IMG/VR virus record: IMGVR_UViG_3300035670_011224 | Coordinates: 88,430 to 152,429 of that record | Origin: a virus | Length of the DNA stretch: 64,000 nt | Strand: one strand, 5' to 3' | Shown: positions 5,579 to 48,597 of the stretch, one piece after another | How positions within the stretch are numbered: the first letter of the stretch is position 1 | Layout: the number at the start of each line of letters is the position of its first letter | Notes under the pieces: generated by a model | Seen by the model: only the letters and a program-made list of their open reading frames with translations | Database searches by the model: none | What the model was told of the DNA's origin: nothing | Made by a program: the position numbers and the translations under genes

Positions 5579-8374
5579 TTAGCACCATTTAATACATTCG
5601 GTATAAGTATCACTATCTTCGTCAATATCACATTTCATACACCTATCTCCAAAACTACAGCCAACACAAGATCCATCAACGCATTTTCTACATAATTTTT
5701 GACTACATTGATTAATACAAACAGCAGAACCTGGAAAAATTGATGAGCTACATATCTCACATTTTGTAGTGTCGCACTTTAGTACACACTCTCCATTTTG
5801 ACACTCTTCGCATTTTTTAGGATCGCACTTAGTGACACATTGTCCATTTATACATACTTCACATTTATTTTTATCACATTTGTTAACACATCCACCTTTA
5901 TTATCACACTCTTCGCATTTTTTACTATCGCAATTGATTATACAATTACCTCTAGAGTCGCATGTTTCGCATTTAGCAGCGTCGCATTTTGCAACACATT
6001 TATTATTTTCGCACTTTTCACATAATATGCTACAATTAGGTACACAATTTCCACGTTCGCATCTTTCGCATTCGTTACATTTTGATTCGCATTTTCCTTT
6101 TCCATCACATATTTCACAATTATTGCGATTACAAACAACAACACAACCGATTGGGCCACATACTTCACATTTGTCTGGATTACATATATATATACAGTTT
6201 TTATTTATACAACTTACGCAAGGATTGTTTTTACATTGCGAAACACAATTTCCACCAATACATTCTTCACATAAAAATTCGTTACATGATGATTTACATA
6301 CTCCTTGATCGCAATATTCACATTCTTTACAAGTAGACACACAATTTCCTTTGCCATCACATTGTAAACATTGTTTTGAGTCACATCCACCATCTACACA
6401 TTGATTATTAACACAAATTTGACAGTCATTACATATGTTGGTACATTTTCCACTAAGATCACAATCCGAACAATCTCCACACTTAGGAACACACTCTCCT
6501 TTTGCATTATCGCATTTTAAACACGGAGATGCTTCCGAACATGATTTATATCCCTTATCGGTACAAACCGTACATGGTGGACCTGATTCTACACAACTTC
6601 TACTACCATTTATCATTACACATTTTCTACCGGAACATTGTGGAGTAGAACATGGATCAACACACTTTCCATTTACACAATCTAAACAAGGATCATCACA
6701 AAAACATTTTTCGTCTTTACATTTGCAAGATCCACATTCACAACAAGGGTCTTTTACACATTTTCCATCTTCACAAATTTCGCATAATAATTCATTGCAT
6801 GACGATTTACAATGTCCATTTTTACATATTTCGCAATTATCTGGTTTACAAAATATTTTACAATCACCGAATTCTTTATCGCACTCTTCACATTGTTCGG
6901 CTCTGCAAGTATATACGCATCTTCCTTGACCATCACACTCTAAACATTTTTTTGGATCACATGATGATACACACTGTCCATTTTCACATATTTCGCAATT
7001 TAGATAATCACAACTATCTTTACAAAAAGATCCAGTACATCTCAAACAATTATTACTATCGCAACTATCTACACATTTTCCATTTTCACAGTCGTAGCAG
7101 CCGTTACATTTGGGTGTACACCATCCACCAGAACAAATTTCACATTCATTGCATTGATTTTTACATACTCCGTTGTCACAAATTTCGCATTTACTTTTGT
7201 CACATTTAGAATAACATCTTCCAGATAAACATTCTAAGCAGCTTTTGGGATCGCAAGGATCTACGCATTTAGAATTACCGTCACAAACTAAACATGAATT
7301 TTTACCACCACAAGCACTTACACATTGGTCATTTTCGCACACCATACAATTTTTACCGTCACAACCATCCACGCACTGATCGTCGATACATCTTTGACAA
7401 CCACTACACGAATTGTAACATGTGCCATCGCAACGCAAACAATTACCACTACATTTTGGAACACATTCACCTGTTTGATAATTACATACTAAACACGAAG
7501 ACGCTTGAGAACATGGTAGATAACCCTGTTGTGTACAAGCTCTACAAAATCCTCCATTATCAACACACGAAGGTTCTCCATCTACTAAAACACATTTTCT
7601 ACCAGGACACTCTGGTGTAGTACATCGATCAACACACTCTCCGTCTTTACAAACTTCACAAGCACTATCACAAACACATGTTTCGTTTTCGCATTTACAA
7701 GATCCACATTCGCAGCAAGGATCTTTTACACATTCACCGTCTTCGCAAATTTCACATTCTTTACAAATTGATTCACAAACATCTCCTGCGCAACGTTGAC
7801 AATTTTCTTTCTTACAAGGATTAATGCATTTACCATTTTCACAAACATTACATCCTTTACAGATTATACCACAACATTTATCTCTATTTCCACAACAAGG
7901 ATCATTTGATCCGCAACATGGATCGGTGTTATTGCAGCATGGTCCACGACAATTTTTATATCCGCCGGGAGACGGCGGGCTTGGTGGACTTGGTGGACTA
8001 GGAGGAGACGGCGGGCTCGGAGGAGGCGGTGAAGGAGGAGGAGGTGGTGGTGGTGGTGGTGGTGGTGGTGGTGGTGGTGGTGGTGGTGGTGGTGGAGGTG
8101 GCGGGGGAGGAGGTGGAGGAGATGGCGGTGGCGGGGGTGGAGGCGAAGGAGGTGGCGACGATGAACATATTCCTCCATAAACCTGGCCATTTGTTGGGTT
8201 GGCTACTGGAGGAGGTGGACAAAAAGGTTCACATCCATCGGGACAAGGTATAGATATCATCCATGTACAAGATTGAGATCCATCATCATTGGCCACACAA
8301 ACAGCAGTGTATTGACAGTCACATCCTGGTGTGCTGGCTAGTGGTTCTATATTAAAAATATTTTTTATTTTCAT
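5579..8374 (-). CDS. Very long Cys-repeat protein with polyproline hinge
   Basis: This is a 931-residue protein. Residues 1-73 form an N-terminal module with six or more cysteines. Residues about 74-137 are an almost pure proline run ending in PPS units. Residues 140-931 are several dozen short repeats of the form CxxCxxGxCVxxCd, about 15-17 residues each. A larger block (CEICEDG.CVKDPCCECGS through GECVPKC) occurs twice, near residues 205-300 and 515-620, showing internal duplication. There is no signal peptide. The architecture suggests a long disulfide-laced rod on a proline stalk. The start overlaps the end of the neighbouring nucleotidyltransferase-like gene by four bases. I know of no named family that fits the whole protein. 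Confidence 0.7.
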   Translation of the reverse strand: MKIKNIFNIEPLASTPGCDCQYTAVCVANDDGSQSCTWMISIPCPDGCEPFCPPPPVANPTNGQVYGGICSSSPPPSPPPPPPPSPPPPPPPPPPPPPPPPPPPPPPPPPPPPPSPPPPSPPSPPSPPSPPSPPSPGGYKNCRGPCCNNTDPCCGSNDPCCGNRDKCCGIICKGCNVCENGKCINPCKKENCQRCAGDVCESICKECEICEDGECVKDPCCECGSCKCENETCVCDSACEVCKDGECVDRCTTPECPGRKCVLVDGEPSCVDNGGFCRACTQQGYLPCSQASSCLVCNYQTGECVPKCSGNCLRCDGTCYNSCSGCQRCIDDQCVDGCDGKNCMVCENDQCVSACGGKNSCLVCDGNSKCVDPCDPKSCLECLSGRCYSKCDKSKCEICDNGVCKNQCNECEICSGGWCTPKCNGCYDCENGKCVDSCDSNNCLRCTGSFCKDSCDYLNCEICENGQCVSSCDPKKCLECDGQGRCVYTCRAEQCEECDKEFGDCKIFCKPDNCEICKNGHCKSSCNELLCEICEDGKCVKDPCCECGSCKCKDEKCFCDDPCLDCVNGKCVDPCSTPQCSGRKCVMINGSRSCVESGPPCTVCTDKGYKSCSEASPCLKCDNAKGECVPKCGDCSDCDLSGKCTNICNDCQICVNNQCVDGGCDSKQCLQCDGKGNCVSTCKECEYCDQGVCKSSCNEFLCEECIGGNCVSQCKNNPCVSCINKNCIYICNPDKCEVCGPIGCVVVCNRNNCEICDGKGKCESKCNECERCERGNCVPNCSILCEKCENNKCVAKCDAAKCETCDSRGNCIINCDSKKCEECDNKGGCVNKCDKNKCEVCINGQCVTKCDPKKCEECQNGECVLKCDTTKCEICSSSIFPGSAVCINQCSQKLCRKCVDGSCVGCSFGDRCMKCDIDEDSDTYTECIKWC
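7965..8155 (-). repeat. Polyproline-coding (GGT/CCA) tract
   Basis: A near-perfect trinucleotide run near 8040-8100 and its flanks encode about 60 prolines with scattered serines. It is prone to slippage, so its length may vary between relatives and assemblies. Confidence 0.9.
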
Positions 8375-41366: not shown

Positions 41367-42509
41367 TCATCCAATACAAAACTTGTCACTAAGTTGATTA
41401 GCCAAATCTTTTGCAGCACTACTAAGGAAACGATTATTACTAAAGTAGAGAGGCGTTGAGACTTGATTAAGGAACTCTACAACGGTCTTTAAAAGTTTGG
41501 TCTGCTGACCATCAAGGTTTATATCCTCGTCAGGCAGAACGTCCTTTGACTCCGTAGACCCATTCTCATCGTCCATCAGAGTATCGTCATCATTCGGATG
41601 GACCGGCACTGGATCGCCATAAGTCTTATACATTTTAGTTTTCTGGAAATAAACAGCCTTCTGATTATTAAGATCCTCTGTGCTGTTTGTATAAGTCATC
41701 TGGTTGAGAATATCAGCAGCAACATTAACTGATACTGGAACACCAGTAATATCAGACTGCTTATAAGCCTTAGCATAACCCTTATACCATTCGTCGCTAC
41801 ATTTCTCAGGAATTATCTGTAGAGTAGCGGGTTGACCAGTAAGAGCAGACTTTAGATCGGCAACATTAATTGGTTGACCAGTACTACCATAAAGAATACT
41901 GGTAAAATAAGGAGCCTTCTTTTCCCATTCCTTACGCCACCAAGTATATGGTACACGATAAATCTGATTGGGCTTAATCGCCCTTGGATCGCCATCAAAA
42001 TAGTTTACCAACTTCTTTTGAAGGCCATTCCAGAAAGTTTTGTTGCTTCCAACAATTTTACGACTAGCATCATCAAAAATCCAGTAACACTGATAGCCAT
42101 TACGAGTATCAACTACCCAACTAGGCTTAACTGGAAAATCATTGATCTTTTTGAGGAATTGCTTTTTCTTAGTCATAACAACGCTGGGCTTAAAATACTT
42201 TCCGTCGCTATCACGACCAGCGTCCATATCACAAAAACAGCAAGTAAATTGGTTGATAGCATATAGTTTACGTCCACCATTTACATAAAAATAAACATCT
42301 GAGTGGTTTGAGATATTAGCCTGTAGAGCATATTCAAGATTACTAGTATGATTCATACTGCTAATCTTCTTACGAGGATTGCCATTATAAACAAAGATGT
42401 TGTTCTGTCTAAAAGAACTCAAAAACCTATGCTGTTCTGCTGCGTATCCATTAGCATGAGGATTATTATTCTTATCGAAAGGATTAAACCCAATATTATC
42501 GCTAAACAT
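41367..42509 (-). CDS. AEP-type (RepB-like) DNA primase
   Basis: The start at 42509 (MFSDNIGFN) has AAGGAATACTAAA just upstream; a longer form would run into a tRNA-like element. The 380-residue product shows FCDMDAG (residues about 92-98, metal-binding DxD of archaeo-eukaryotic primases), PSWVVDTRNGYQCYWIF (the s-x-H segment, with Q in place of H), and FDGDPRAIKPNQIYRVPYTWW, typical of RepB-family primases. The C-terminal 140 residues are acidic and probably flexible. It likely primes DNA replication. The family level is fairly sure; the polymerase activity is not. Confidence 0.7.
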   Translation of the reverse strand: MFSDNIGFNPFDKNNNPHANGYAAEQHRFLSSFRQNNIFVYNGNPRKKISSMNHTSNLEYALQANISNHSDVYFYVNGGRKLYAINQFTCCFCDMDAGRDSDGKYFKPSVVMTKKKQFLKKINDFPVKPSWVVDTRNGYQCYWIFDDASRKIVGSNKTFWNGLQKKLVNYFDGDPRAIKPNQIYRVPYTWWRKEWEKKAPYFTSILYGSTGQPINVADLKSALTGQPATLQIIPEKCSDEWYKGYAKAYKQSDITGVPVSVNVAADILNQMTYTNSTEDLNNQKAVYFQKTKMYKTYGDPVPVHPNDDDTLMDDENGSTESKDVLPDEDINLDGQQTKLLKTVVEFLNQVSTPLYFSNNRFLSSAAKDLANQLSDKFCIG

Positions 42510-42574
42510 TTTAGTATTCCTTATTTCCTTAAAATTTGTTGGGAAAGGCACCACACCTATCATAGTCAACAAAA

Positions 42575-42624
42575 GAGTGTTGGCGGGATCGAACCGCCAT
42601 AGCCCATATTTCTATTGCTCACTC
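42575..42624 (-). other. Truncated tRNA-like element
   Basis: A perfect T-arm GGCGG-TTCGATC-CCGCC (42582-42598) is followed by AACACTC, whose last five bases pair with GAGTG about 45 bases upstream (42620-42624). Only 21 bases lie between, too few for D and anticodon arms. It starts 8 bases after the rIIB stop and ends in TTTTGTT. It may be a decayed tRNA, a mini tRNA-like processing signal, or a terminator. Confidence 0.5.
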
Positions 42625-42632
42625 CGTTTTTA

Positions 42633-43496
42633 TCAAACATAATCCTGATCAGGATCATAGTCTTCATCTTCATCTTCATCTTCATCTTCGTACTGATTCC
42701 AGTAATCATCATCATACTCATCGTATAACTGCTCTTCATCGTCATCATAAGAGTCTTCGCTAAACTCAGCCTTGTAAAGAGGCTTTAGGAGTTCACCTTG
42801 ATATTCACCAACAACTTCATATCGACAAGTACGAAGTTTTTCATGATTACAATCACTAGGAACACTGACTACATCCTTGGGATTGATCTTAACGATCATA
42901 ATATGATCGCCACTATCAGCACTACCATAATTAGCCACATAGTTCAAAGCACCAGCATGAAGTCCCTGAGAGCAACCAACACTACGATTATCGTCAACCT
43001 TAGCCCTATTCATTTGGCAAACTTTGCCAACATGGTTGTCAAATGTACCAGCATACTTATCCATATAATCGCTACGAACAGCCTTATATGCTAGAAAATG
43101 ACCATCCTCAGTTATTGGCAGATGTTCATGCTCCAAGAAATCATACAGTTCCTTTTGGCTCTGCATACTAGGATTTTCCATAAGATTATTCAAGAAGTTT
43201 ACAAGAGGCTGAAACGGTAATCCCTTACTCATAAACTCTAGAATACGCTTACTAATGCTACCATGAACTTCTTCGCCATCAAAAAGCACCTTGCCGTTCT
43301 TGACTTCAACCAGACCATCACTAAATGATGATACTGCCTTTTCAATATCCACCAGATCTAGCAACTCATCATTTGTTGCTGTTGGTAGAGCCTCAAGAAT
43401 CAACTTGTAATTAATATGATCTGGAATAACTTGATAAGCCTTATTATTCAAGATCAGTGTCAAATTACCATCAACCCACATAAACGGAACGCTCAT
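42633..43496 (-). CDS. rIIB-like protein
   Basis: This 287-residue protein, directly downstream of rIIA as in T4. Residues about 120-215 carry the rIIB pattern: FLEHEHLPITEDGHFLAYKA, AGTFDNHVGKV, and RSVGCSQGLHAGALNYV. The C-terminus is an unusual acidic tail (DEDEDEDEDYD). A GAGGAG ribosome site precedes the ATG. RII proteins are membrane-associated and affect lysis timing and exclusion in T4; the same role here is inferred. Confidence 0.8.
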   Translation of the reverse strand: MSVPFMWVDGNLTLILNNKAYQVIPDHINYKLILEALPTATNDELLDLVDIEKAVSSFSDGLVEVKNGKVLFDGEEVHGSISKRILEFMSKGLPFQPLVNFLNNLMENPSMQSQKELYDFLEHEHLPITEDGHFLAYKAVRSDYMDKYAGTFDNHVGKVCQMNRAKVDDNRSVGCSQGLHAGALNYVANYGSADSGDHIMIVKINPKDVVSVPSDCNHEKLRTCRYEVVGEYQGELLKPLYKAEFSEDSYDDDEEQLYDEYDDDYWNQYEDEDEDEDEDYDPDQDYV

Positions 43497-48514: not shown

Positions 48515-48597
48515 TGGGACTGGTGGGAGTCGAACCCACACTCCTAGTCGGAAATGGATTTTGAGTCCATCGCGTATGCCAATTCCGCCACAGTCCC
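48515..48597 (-). tRNA. tRNA-Leu (anticodon CAA)
   Basis: A complete 83-base tRNA. The acceptor stem GGGACTG pairs with CAGTCCC, a D-arm with GG in its loop follows, and the anticodon stem ATGGA/TCCAT encloses CTCAAAA with anticodon CAA (reads UUG). It has a long class II variable arm and T-arm GTGGG-TTCGACT-CCCAC. CCA is not encoded. It sits between the small DNA-binding-like gene and the FkbM gene. Confidence 0.95.

Follow-up and report, generated by a model that had tools for sequence, protein, structure and literature searches.

The stretch of viral DNA analyzed here, called the window in the following, comprises 64,000 nt (positions 88,430 to 152,429 of IMG/VR record IMGVR_UViG_3300035670_011224). 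The genes rIIA, rIIB, and that of a predicted primase have one common direction, and a tRNA-like element of 50 nt is located between the latter two. It starts 8 nt past the rIIB stop codon (42633–42635), and 65 nt separate it from the start codon of the next gene. Read 5′ to 3′ from position 42624 on the minus strand, it consists of GAGTG, AGC, AATAGAAATATGG, GCT, AT, GGCGG TTCGATC CCGCC, AA, and CACTC, and it is followed by TTTT (42574–42571). The features of the region are summarized in Table 1. An earlier note, made from the letters of this DNA alone, had described a perfect T-arm, a 5′ GAGTG able to pair with the 3′ end, a terminal TTTT, and a location behind the rIIB stop codon, all of which agree with the minus-strand sequence, the fold, and the stop codon 8 nt upstream. 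The note had also stated that a D arm and an anticodon arm of normal size were lacking. The anticodon arm is indeed absent, but the 21 bases in question contain a small D-arm analogue, AGC/GCT with a GG.

Table 1. Features at the boundary between rIIB and the primase gene in the window
Feature	Position	Strand	Basis
rIIB gene, upstream neighbour, same direction	42633..43496	-	phrog_609, E 1.3e-72
Complete 50-nt tRNA-like element: acceptor strands enclosing a D-like hairpin and a T-arm; anticodon arm absent	42575..42624	-	sequence, fold, relatives
Acceptor stem, 5′ strand GAGTG	42620..42624	-	sequence, fold; pair changes across relatives
D-like hairpin: AGC (42617-42619), loop AATAGAAATATGG (42604-42616), GCT (42601-42603)	42601..42619	-	fold; recurrence of the GG hairpin
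T-arm GGCGG / TTCGATC / CCGCC	42582..42598	-	sequence, fold, relatives
Acceptor stem, 3′ strand CACTC	42575..42579	-	sequence, fold, relatives
TTTT directly behind CACTC; might be a tRNase Z trailer or the tail of a terminator	42571..42574	-	sequence, terminator scan
Primase-gene leader hairpin: TTGTTG/CAACAA and GATAGG/CCTTTC flanking an asymmetric internal loop	42536..42572	-	55 distinct leaders
Predicted AEP-type primase gene, downstream neighbour, same direction	41367..42509	-	predicted fold match

The minimum-energy fold of the element (-15.3 kcal/mol) contains the acceptor, D-like, and T-arm helices and an inner ATA/TAT helix. The latter would have 3 bp and a GAAA loop, and the GG of the D-like loop (42604–42605) stands directly before GCT. 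An extra T-arm pair was predicted between T42599 and A42581, and G42625 and T42574 could form a sixth acceptor pair (G-U). The acceptor and the T-stem thus comprise 5+6 bp, interrupted by an unpaired A, or 12 bp with the G-U pair. The fold energy was only modestly better than that of shuffled sequences (z -1.9; 8 of 200 shuffles were equally good). The single-sequence fold is therefore modest evidence, and the weight rests on conservation in relatives. A single copy of the T-arm motif GGTTCGATYCC is present in the 152-kb record containing the window, and a scan of the window for T-arms with acceptors returned the element, a tRNA-Leu, and two further matches that were taken for chance.

Conservation of the element behind rIIB

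Three scans of IMG/VR with rIIB queries, the best 80 matches of each being used, were combined with pattern scans and yielded 408 sources, the window included. Of these, 328 contained rIIB with its stop codon, resulting in 147 distinct downstream sequences. A T-arm element was found within 165 nt of the rIIB stop codon in 130 of the 147. The neighbouring gene was the primase gene in 79 cases and a gene for an acidic protein in 47 cases; neither was in reach in the remaining 4. The earlier note had proposed conservation in related phages as a check, and the outcome was strongly positive, with the T-loop kept and the stems covarying in these relatives. At one primase locus, L288, the element is separated from the rIIB stop codon by about 640 nt and remains with the primase leader. 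At several acidic-gene loci devoid of the element (L176, L185, L197, and others), inspection by eye revealed a hairpin after the rIIB stop codon and a near-consensus sigma70 promoter partly within it.

Automatic stem annotation was obtained for 127 of the 130 elements. The T-loop was TTCGATT in 88 of them, TTCGATC in 37, and TTCGACT and TTCGACC in one each, i.e., TTCGAT[TC] in 125 of 127. In tRNAs, the acceptor and the T-stem together have 12 bp (7+5), and the GG of the D-loop pairs with the T-loop. For the elements, combined lengths of 10, 11, 12, 13, 14, and 15 bp were found in 12, 12, 30, 42, 29, and 2 cases, respectively, so that 101 of 127 have 12–14 bp, although the values lean high because the annotation picks the best-scoring acceptor. 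A small GG hairpin that by its sequence could dock onto the T-loop, as in the elbow of a tRNA, follows the 5′ acceptor strand in 128 of 130 elements. It occurs in several versions, namely AGC..GGGCT (the class of the window), CCGC-TGG(N)-GCGG, AGTC-TGGN-GACT, GTT-TGG-AAC, and variants thereof. Longer D-loops of the window's class, A-ATA-GAAA-TAT-GG and A-AAA-GNAA-TTT-GG, show an inner helix with changes on both sides and a GNRA-type loop. The middle of the element is variable, and lengths of 43–116 nt were observed among 74 annotated elements. The D hairpin and the T-arm are connected either by a linker alone or by tens of nucleotides with additional helices. Five loci with the element behind rIIB (L015, L030, L225, L228, and L241) have two T-arms, and the D-like hairpin follows the inner one instead of preceding it.

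Compensatory changes were quantified for the T-stem and for two MAFFT alignments. The 24 distinct T-stems had standard pairs at 120 of 120 positions, the inner four pairs having been required by the method, and 39 two-sided changes compared with a mean of 11.4 in shuffles. Alignment A1 (16 sequences, 9 pairs) was 100% paired and had 17 cells with two-sided changes versus 5.2 in shuffles, and A2 (12 sequences, 15 pairs) was also 100% paired and had 26 such cells versus 7.8. When the pairings of A1 and A2 were slid along the alignments, no version came near the true one. Acceptor strands next to the D hairpin formed at least 5 bp with their own partners in 97% of the elements, versus 45% when strands were swapped between elements (n=72). 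The D-like hairpin was left out of A1, where it had been misplaced by MAFFT. It varies little within a class, its four pairs are invariant in A2, and L037 breaks one pair; the evidence for this predicted hairpin is thus its recurrence in several sequence versions.

These results bear on the view that the element is a functionless remnant of a decayed tRNA gene. The missing anticodon arm and the lack of an ARAGORN or Rfam call would suit such a remnant. The compensatory changes, the complete pairing in A1 and A2, and the recurrence of this reduced architecture in other phages would not, and we regard a mere remnant as highly improbable. As the whole story, the "decayed tRNA" of the earlier note is contradicted, although a distant origin of the element from a tRNA may be possible.

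The body classes were followed on a quickly built rIIB tree with 130 rows, in which 52 of 127 inner branches are open. With five body classes and the labels "other" and "none", seven labels in all, the tree required 25 changes, and well-supported branches alone forced 4 changes for the AGC class, 4 for the CCGC class, and 3 for the GTC class. The body of the element thus appears to be swapped among relatives, while the tRNA-like frame, the T-loop and the D-like GG hairpin, persists.

Two classes of the element are closely bound to rIIB. When IMG/VR was searched with their patterns, 54 stretches of the window's class and 40 of the CCGC class were retrieved, and 53 and 39 of these, respectively, lie directly after rIIB; the two exceptions have just 48 and 183 nt of upstream sequence. 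In nine large phage records, in which the position of rIIB was read from each sequence, GGTTCGATYCC was present at 18 places, 8 at rIIB, 9 in tRNAs called by ARAGORN, and one (L500) in neither, near tRNA genes. The motif is absent from the ninth record (G007), yet the element was found there (E 3.7e-20) with R1, a covariance model of 16 elements of the mini class. R1 also finds the copy of the window; of the long classes it returned merely fragments, and its other matches were weak (E 0.05 to 1). Among the side observations of these searches were a phage tmRNA called by ARAGORN (L499:372-724, minus strand; tag GNTQLALAA) in a record that also carries the rIIB element, and an ARAGORN tRNA whose anticodon has four bases (atct), located in a cluster of phage tRNAs (L490:1109-1186, minus strand).

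The excised mini-tRNA might itself be the product, i.e., a stable trans-acting small RNA, for example a decoy for tRNA-binding enzymes or for defence or toxin proteins that attack tRNAs; it has no anticodon that could be cut. The occurrence of the T-arm motif in the nine records, once at rIIB and otherwise in tRNAs except for the one odd place, fits this idea, as does the T-loop sequence, which is kept more strictly than the stem sequences. Nevertheless, we consider it unlikely, as the body has been replaced repeatedly between relatives and the position is bound to a gene boundary.

tRNA tests and elements at other gene ends

The only call of ARAGORN and Rfam in the window was a tRNA-Leu(CAA) at 48515–48597. 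ARAGORN did not call the element a tRNA, neither in the window nor in any of the 47 relatives submitted, and Rfam model RF00005 did not match it in the window, in 42300–42900 (E up to 1), or in 13 relatives. A tRNA gene was rejected because the 21 nt between acceptor and T-arm leave no space for a cloverleaf; the T-arm by itself, with a 5-bp stem and a TTC[AG]A loop, is that of a tRNA gene. ARAGORN also did not call a tmRNA with a tag-peptide frame in the window. At the gathering score, Rfam found nothing at the elements of the window and of two sets of 13 loci; away from the elements, these loci contained tRNAs, a Pistol ribozyme, and a glutamine-II riboswitch. The coaxial stack of about 12 bp of acceptor and T-stem that characterizes a minimal RNase P substrate is present, with 10–15 bp in the rIIB elements and 8–14 bp in elements elsewhere. 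A CCA-adding enzyme (PF01743) was not found in the element's own record, which is possibly incomplete.

The occurrence of the element elsewhere was analyzed with the GTC-TGGN-GAC class, which was searched as a pattern of hairpin and T-arm. After removal of matches at rIIB, 82 matches remained, and 40 of them had a T-stem of at least 5 bp and an acceptor of at least 4 bp. The combined stem lengths of these 40 elements were 8, 9, 10, 11, 12, 13, and 14 bp in 1, 1, 2, 13, 20, 2, and 1 cases, respectively, and a stack of 11–12 bp was thus present in 33. Only 5 of the 40, compared with 19 of the 42 other matches, lie inside an open reading frame (ORF) of at least 80 aa. Stricter merging led to 70 matches, of which 26 of 47 outside and 4 of 23 inside ORFs passed, and these 30 elements contain 18 different T-stems. 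According to a simple ORF rule, 24 of the 40 begin -1 to 13 nt past the stop codon of an ORF of at least 60 aa. As the search pattern included the D hairpin and the inner T-arm, the independent evidence outside rIIB comprises the acceptor pairing, the outer T-stem pairs, and the position only.

These elements are located in lactobacillus prophages and in other phage contigs. By a crude rule, 11 of the 30 merged elements are of lactobacillus type and 19 are others, but many of the elements outside rIIB come from related lactobacillus prophages, at least L421, L428, and L437 among the 19 are also lactobacilli, and L308 and L450 are a pair. In Lactobacillus phage LBR48, the element is located at the end of a membrane-protein gene, the annotated frame of which extends 14 nt into the match, and about 105 nt ahead of the integrase gene. 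Further copies are present in JNU_P2 and, twice, in L. brevis ATCC 14869. Ten upstream and ten downstream ORFs of the 40 elements were compared with Pfam, and ten upstream ORFs with PHROGs. Many of the ORFs had no match, and the sole recurrence of a family was DUF805/DUF4352, matched by the upstream genes of two lactobacillus elements. Family matches of upstream neighbours were a helicase (L428), an SSB-like protein (L479), and a membrane moron (L421), and those of downstream neighbours an integrase (L302), a methylase (L291), an AAA ATPase (L259), and a transposase (L439).

Five lactobacillus phages or prophages (L259, L321, L322, L330, and L440) contain two mini-element copies about 0.5–1.7 kb apart, and a tRNA-like sequence starts within a few nucleotides after one copy; in L259, it is a called tRNA (7802–7872). 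A Pistol ribozyme (L263:3983-4047, plus strand) precedes a mini-tRNA element by about 390 nt in a phage contig, and a glutamine-II riboswitch aptamer (L308:4034-4087, plus strand) precedes another one by about 70 nt.

Proposed processing of the rIIB–primase transcript

We propose, with a probability of roughly 0.6, that the element is an mRNA punctuation signal that mimics a tRNA, with host RNase P cutting at the 5′ side and tRNase Z or 3′ nucleases at the 3′ side. Of the three roles that the earlier note had considered (terminator, decayed tRNA, and processing signal), the processing signal is best supported, while cleavage itself is what we infer. According to this proposal, rIIB, the element, and the primase gene would be transcribed together. 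The RNA would fold like the upper half of a tRNA, with the acceptor stacked on the T-arm (5–6 + 5–6 bp in the window) and the GG of the small D hairpin docked onto the T-loop to form an elbow. Host RNase P, gauging the distance from the elbow to the acceptor end, would then cut the 5′ side and leave the rIIB mRNA with a 3′ end a few nucleotides past its stop codon. Release of the 3′ side by tRNase Z or 3′ nucleases would place the 5′ end of the primase mRNA just ahead of the leader hairpin. This leader might cap the new 5′ end, and the 3′ end of the rIIB mRNA might be capped by the strong hairpin that is present between the stop codon and the element at many long-class loci.

In passages of PMC4919913, RNase P is likened to a ruler that gauges the acceptor and the T stem-loop and also cleaves further RNAs with such a shape; passages of PMC10731613 describe it as measuring the T stem-loop stacked on the acceptor. 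Cleavage by RNase P is proposed because the parts of the element that are kept are those measured by this enzyme. Moreover, bacterial RNase P cleaves non-tRNA RNAs, including phage RNAs, according to passages of PMC11143913. The surroundings of the element also argue for processing. At the acidic-gene loci, a simple start-codon rule put no more than 20 nt between the element and the start codon in 25 of 45 cases and no more than 38 nt in 33 of 45, and read-through is therefore very likely. A promoter-like site after the element was found at 10 of the 45 acidic-gene loci and at 1 of the 79 primase loci, and none was found between the element and the primase gene in the window. The probable read-through at the acidic-gene loci and the lack of a promoter-like site before the primase gene of the window favour processing over termination.

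An alternative would be an intrinsic terminator, or a partial attenuator, of the rIIB transcript, with a hairpin that resembles a T-arm incidentally. A terminator scan indeed flagged the T-arm together with ACACTCTTTT in the window as the sole site within 5.7 kb, where shuffles gave 2.8. As a general explanation, a terminator is weakened by the close start codons of the acidic genes, by the missing promoter-like site in the window, and by the lack of a run of at least four T after 27 of the 127 rIIB elements and, in the 16 nt that begin with the 3′ acceptor strand, in 38 of the 40 elements elsewhere. In addition, a terminator requires neither TTCGAT[TC] nor a D-like hairpin. The suggestion of the earlier note that the element might be a terminator may apply to the flagged window copy and is weak for the class, and termination as the sole role seems rather unlikely. 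Double use as a partial terminator and a processing site would be possible.

Several observations weigh against the proposed processing. A run of at least four T, fitting a terminator, is present after most rIIB elements (100 of 127), and terminator-like hairpins were seen by eye at the same place in the distant rIIB phages L166, L167, and L169. The element is missing at this place in 17 of the 147 downstream sequences; an acidic gene is next in 16 of them and the primase gene in one (L288). By eye, most of the 16 have another hairpin, and several have a promoter-like TTGAC/TATAAT pair, which also speaks for a terminator at this site. The acceptor of the window copy has just 5–6 bp, and an unpaired A precedes the T-stem. 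The number of pair types does not exceed that of shuffles in A1 or A2, and the number of A1 pairs with two-sided changes (3 versus 2.2) also does not. RNase P prefers CCA in the processing of a dimeric T4 precursor (passages of PMC11143913), and the element encodes no CCA. The D-loop seems to be dispensable for RNase P (passages of PMC4919913), and conservation of the D hairpin is thus not explained by this enzyme alone; the hairpin may serve stability or another enzyme. Furthermore, in one case, an mRNA with a plant-mitochondrial t-element was unaffected by a knock-down of RNase P (passages of PMC4368725), and therefore the enzyme is not settled everywhere even in plant mitochondria.

The element could also remain uncut and act as a 3′ roadblock or stabilizer that shields the rIIB mRNA from exonucleases. 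A compact structure directly behind a stop codon is well suited for this, and so is the additional strong hairpin of the long-class loci. As retention of the tRNA-like loop sequence and of the acceptor would be left unexplained, we regard this possibility as quite improbable.

With respect to processing by tRNA mimicry, the nearest system in its working is that of the plant-mitochondrial t-elements, tRNA-like sequences at mRNA ends. Transcript ends can be set by RNase P and RNase Z cutting these sequences, which carry CCA tails and are not aminoacylated (passages of PMC11658184). In contrast to t-elements, the phage element lacks an anticodon arm or has other sequence in its place, and a parent tRNA was not seen. 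The tRNA-like RNAs mascRNA and MEN-beta RNA have a small, reduced shape. Such structures of the long non-coding RNAs MALAT1 and MEN-beta are non-tRNA substrates of RNase P (passages of PMC4919913). They differ in being eukaryotic and located at the ends of long non-coding RNAs. The tRNA-like domain of tmRNA corresponds to the upper half of a tRNA without the anticodon arm (passages of PMC3929946); the phage element resembles this domain and differs in that no tag reading frame was seen. M3 RNA, antisense C4 RNA, and T4 tRNA precursors are phage transcripts that are processed by host RNase P (passages of PMC11143913). Their proposed likeness to the element is this processing. To our knowledge, they are not known as gene-boundary elements. 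The T4-like phage mogra and phage PA5oct have terminator-like hairpins directly after the rIIB stop codon, at the same place as the element, but these are GC hairpins with a T run, and a TTCGA T-arm with an acceptor was not found there. No phage elements of this tRNA-like or RNase P-cut kind were found in searches of the open-access literature, and the available passages of PMC9004378 and PMC7609411 contain nothing on them.

We thus rate tRNA-like processing signals as known and their reduction to elbow and acceptor, in phages, as new. It is well conceivable, if slightly short of an even chance, that many phage lineages use a general, undescribed class of anticodon-less mini-tRNAs, consisting of an acceptor, a UGG D hairpin, and a UUCGA T-arm, as gene punctuation cut by host enzymes of tRNA maturation. 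If so, the tRNA-punctuation principle of mitochondria would be present in viruses, with the tRNA cut down to the part measured by the enzyme, and a viral mRNA-processing signal would have been overlooked by ARAGORN and Rfam. It would also suggest how large phages part rIIB from the following replication gene without a promoter or a full terminator. The various acceptor/T-stem splits, bulges, and D hairpins would constitute a natural set of minimal substrates for the requirements of RNase P and tRNase Z, and a simple search rule for finding further elements is provided.

The downstream primase gene and its leader

The product of the downstream gene had no sequence-family match in PHROGs, Pfam, NCBIfam, or PDB sequences. 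A structural model was built on 33 aligned sequences, among them that of the product itself, and had a mean pLDDT of 65.6. The model matches AEP primase-polymerases, the best match being the PrimPol domain of cyanophage S-2L (Foldseek E 3.7e-6), and a structural comparison with 6zp9 yielded a Z score of 15.7 with 175 aligned residues at 3.0 Å. The predicted fold thus identifies the product as a probable AEP-type primase, and the name given to the gene by the earlier note was appropriate.

The leader of the primase gene contains a hairpin of its own. Among 55 distinct versions, many compensatory pair types were observed, and the outermost pair is broken in 9. No Rfam match was found for the leader in the 13 loci searched. 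A CCC motif of the leader is present in 78 of the 79 annotated loci with the primase gene next to the element, and the leader hairpin is a candidate autoregulatory site or riboswitch.
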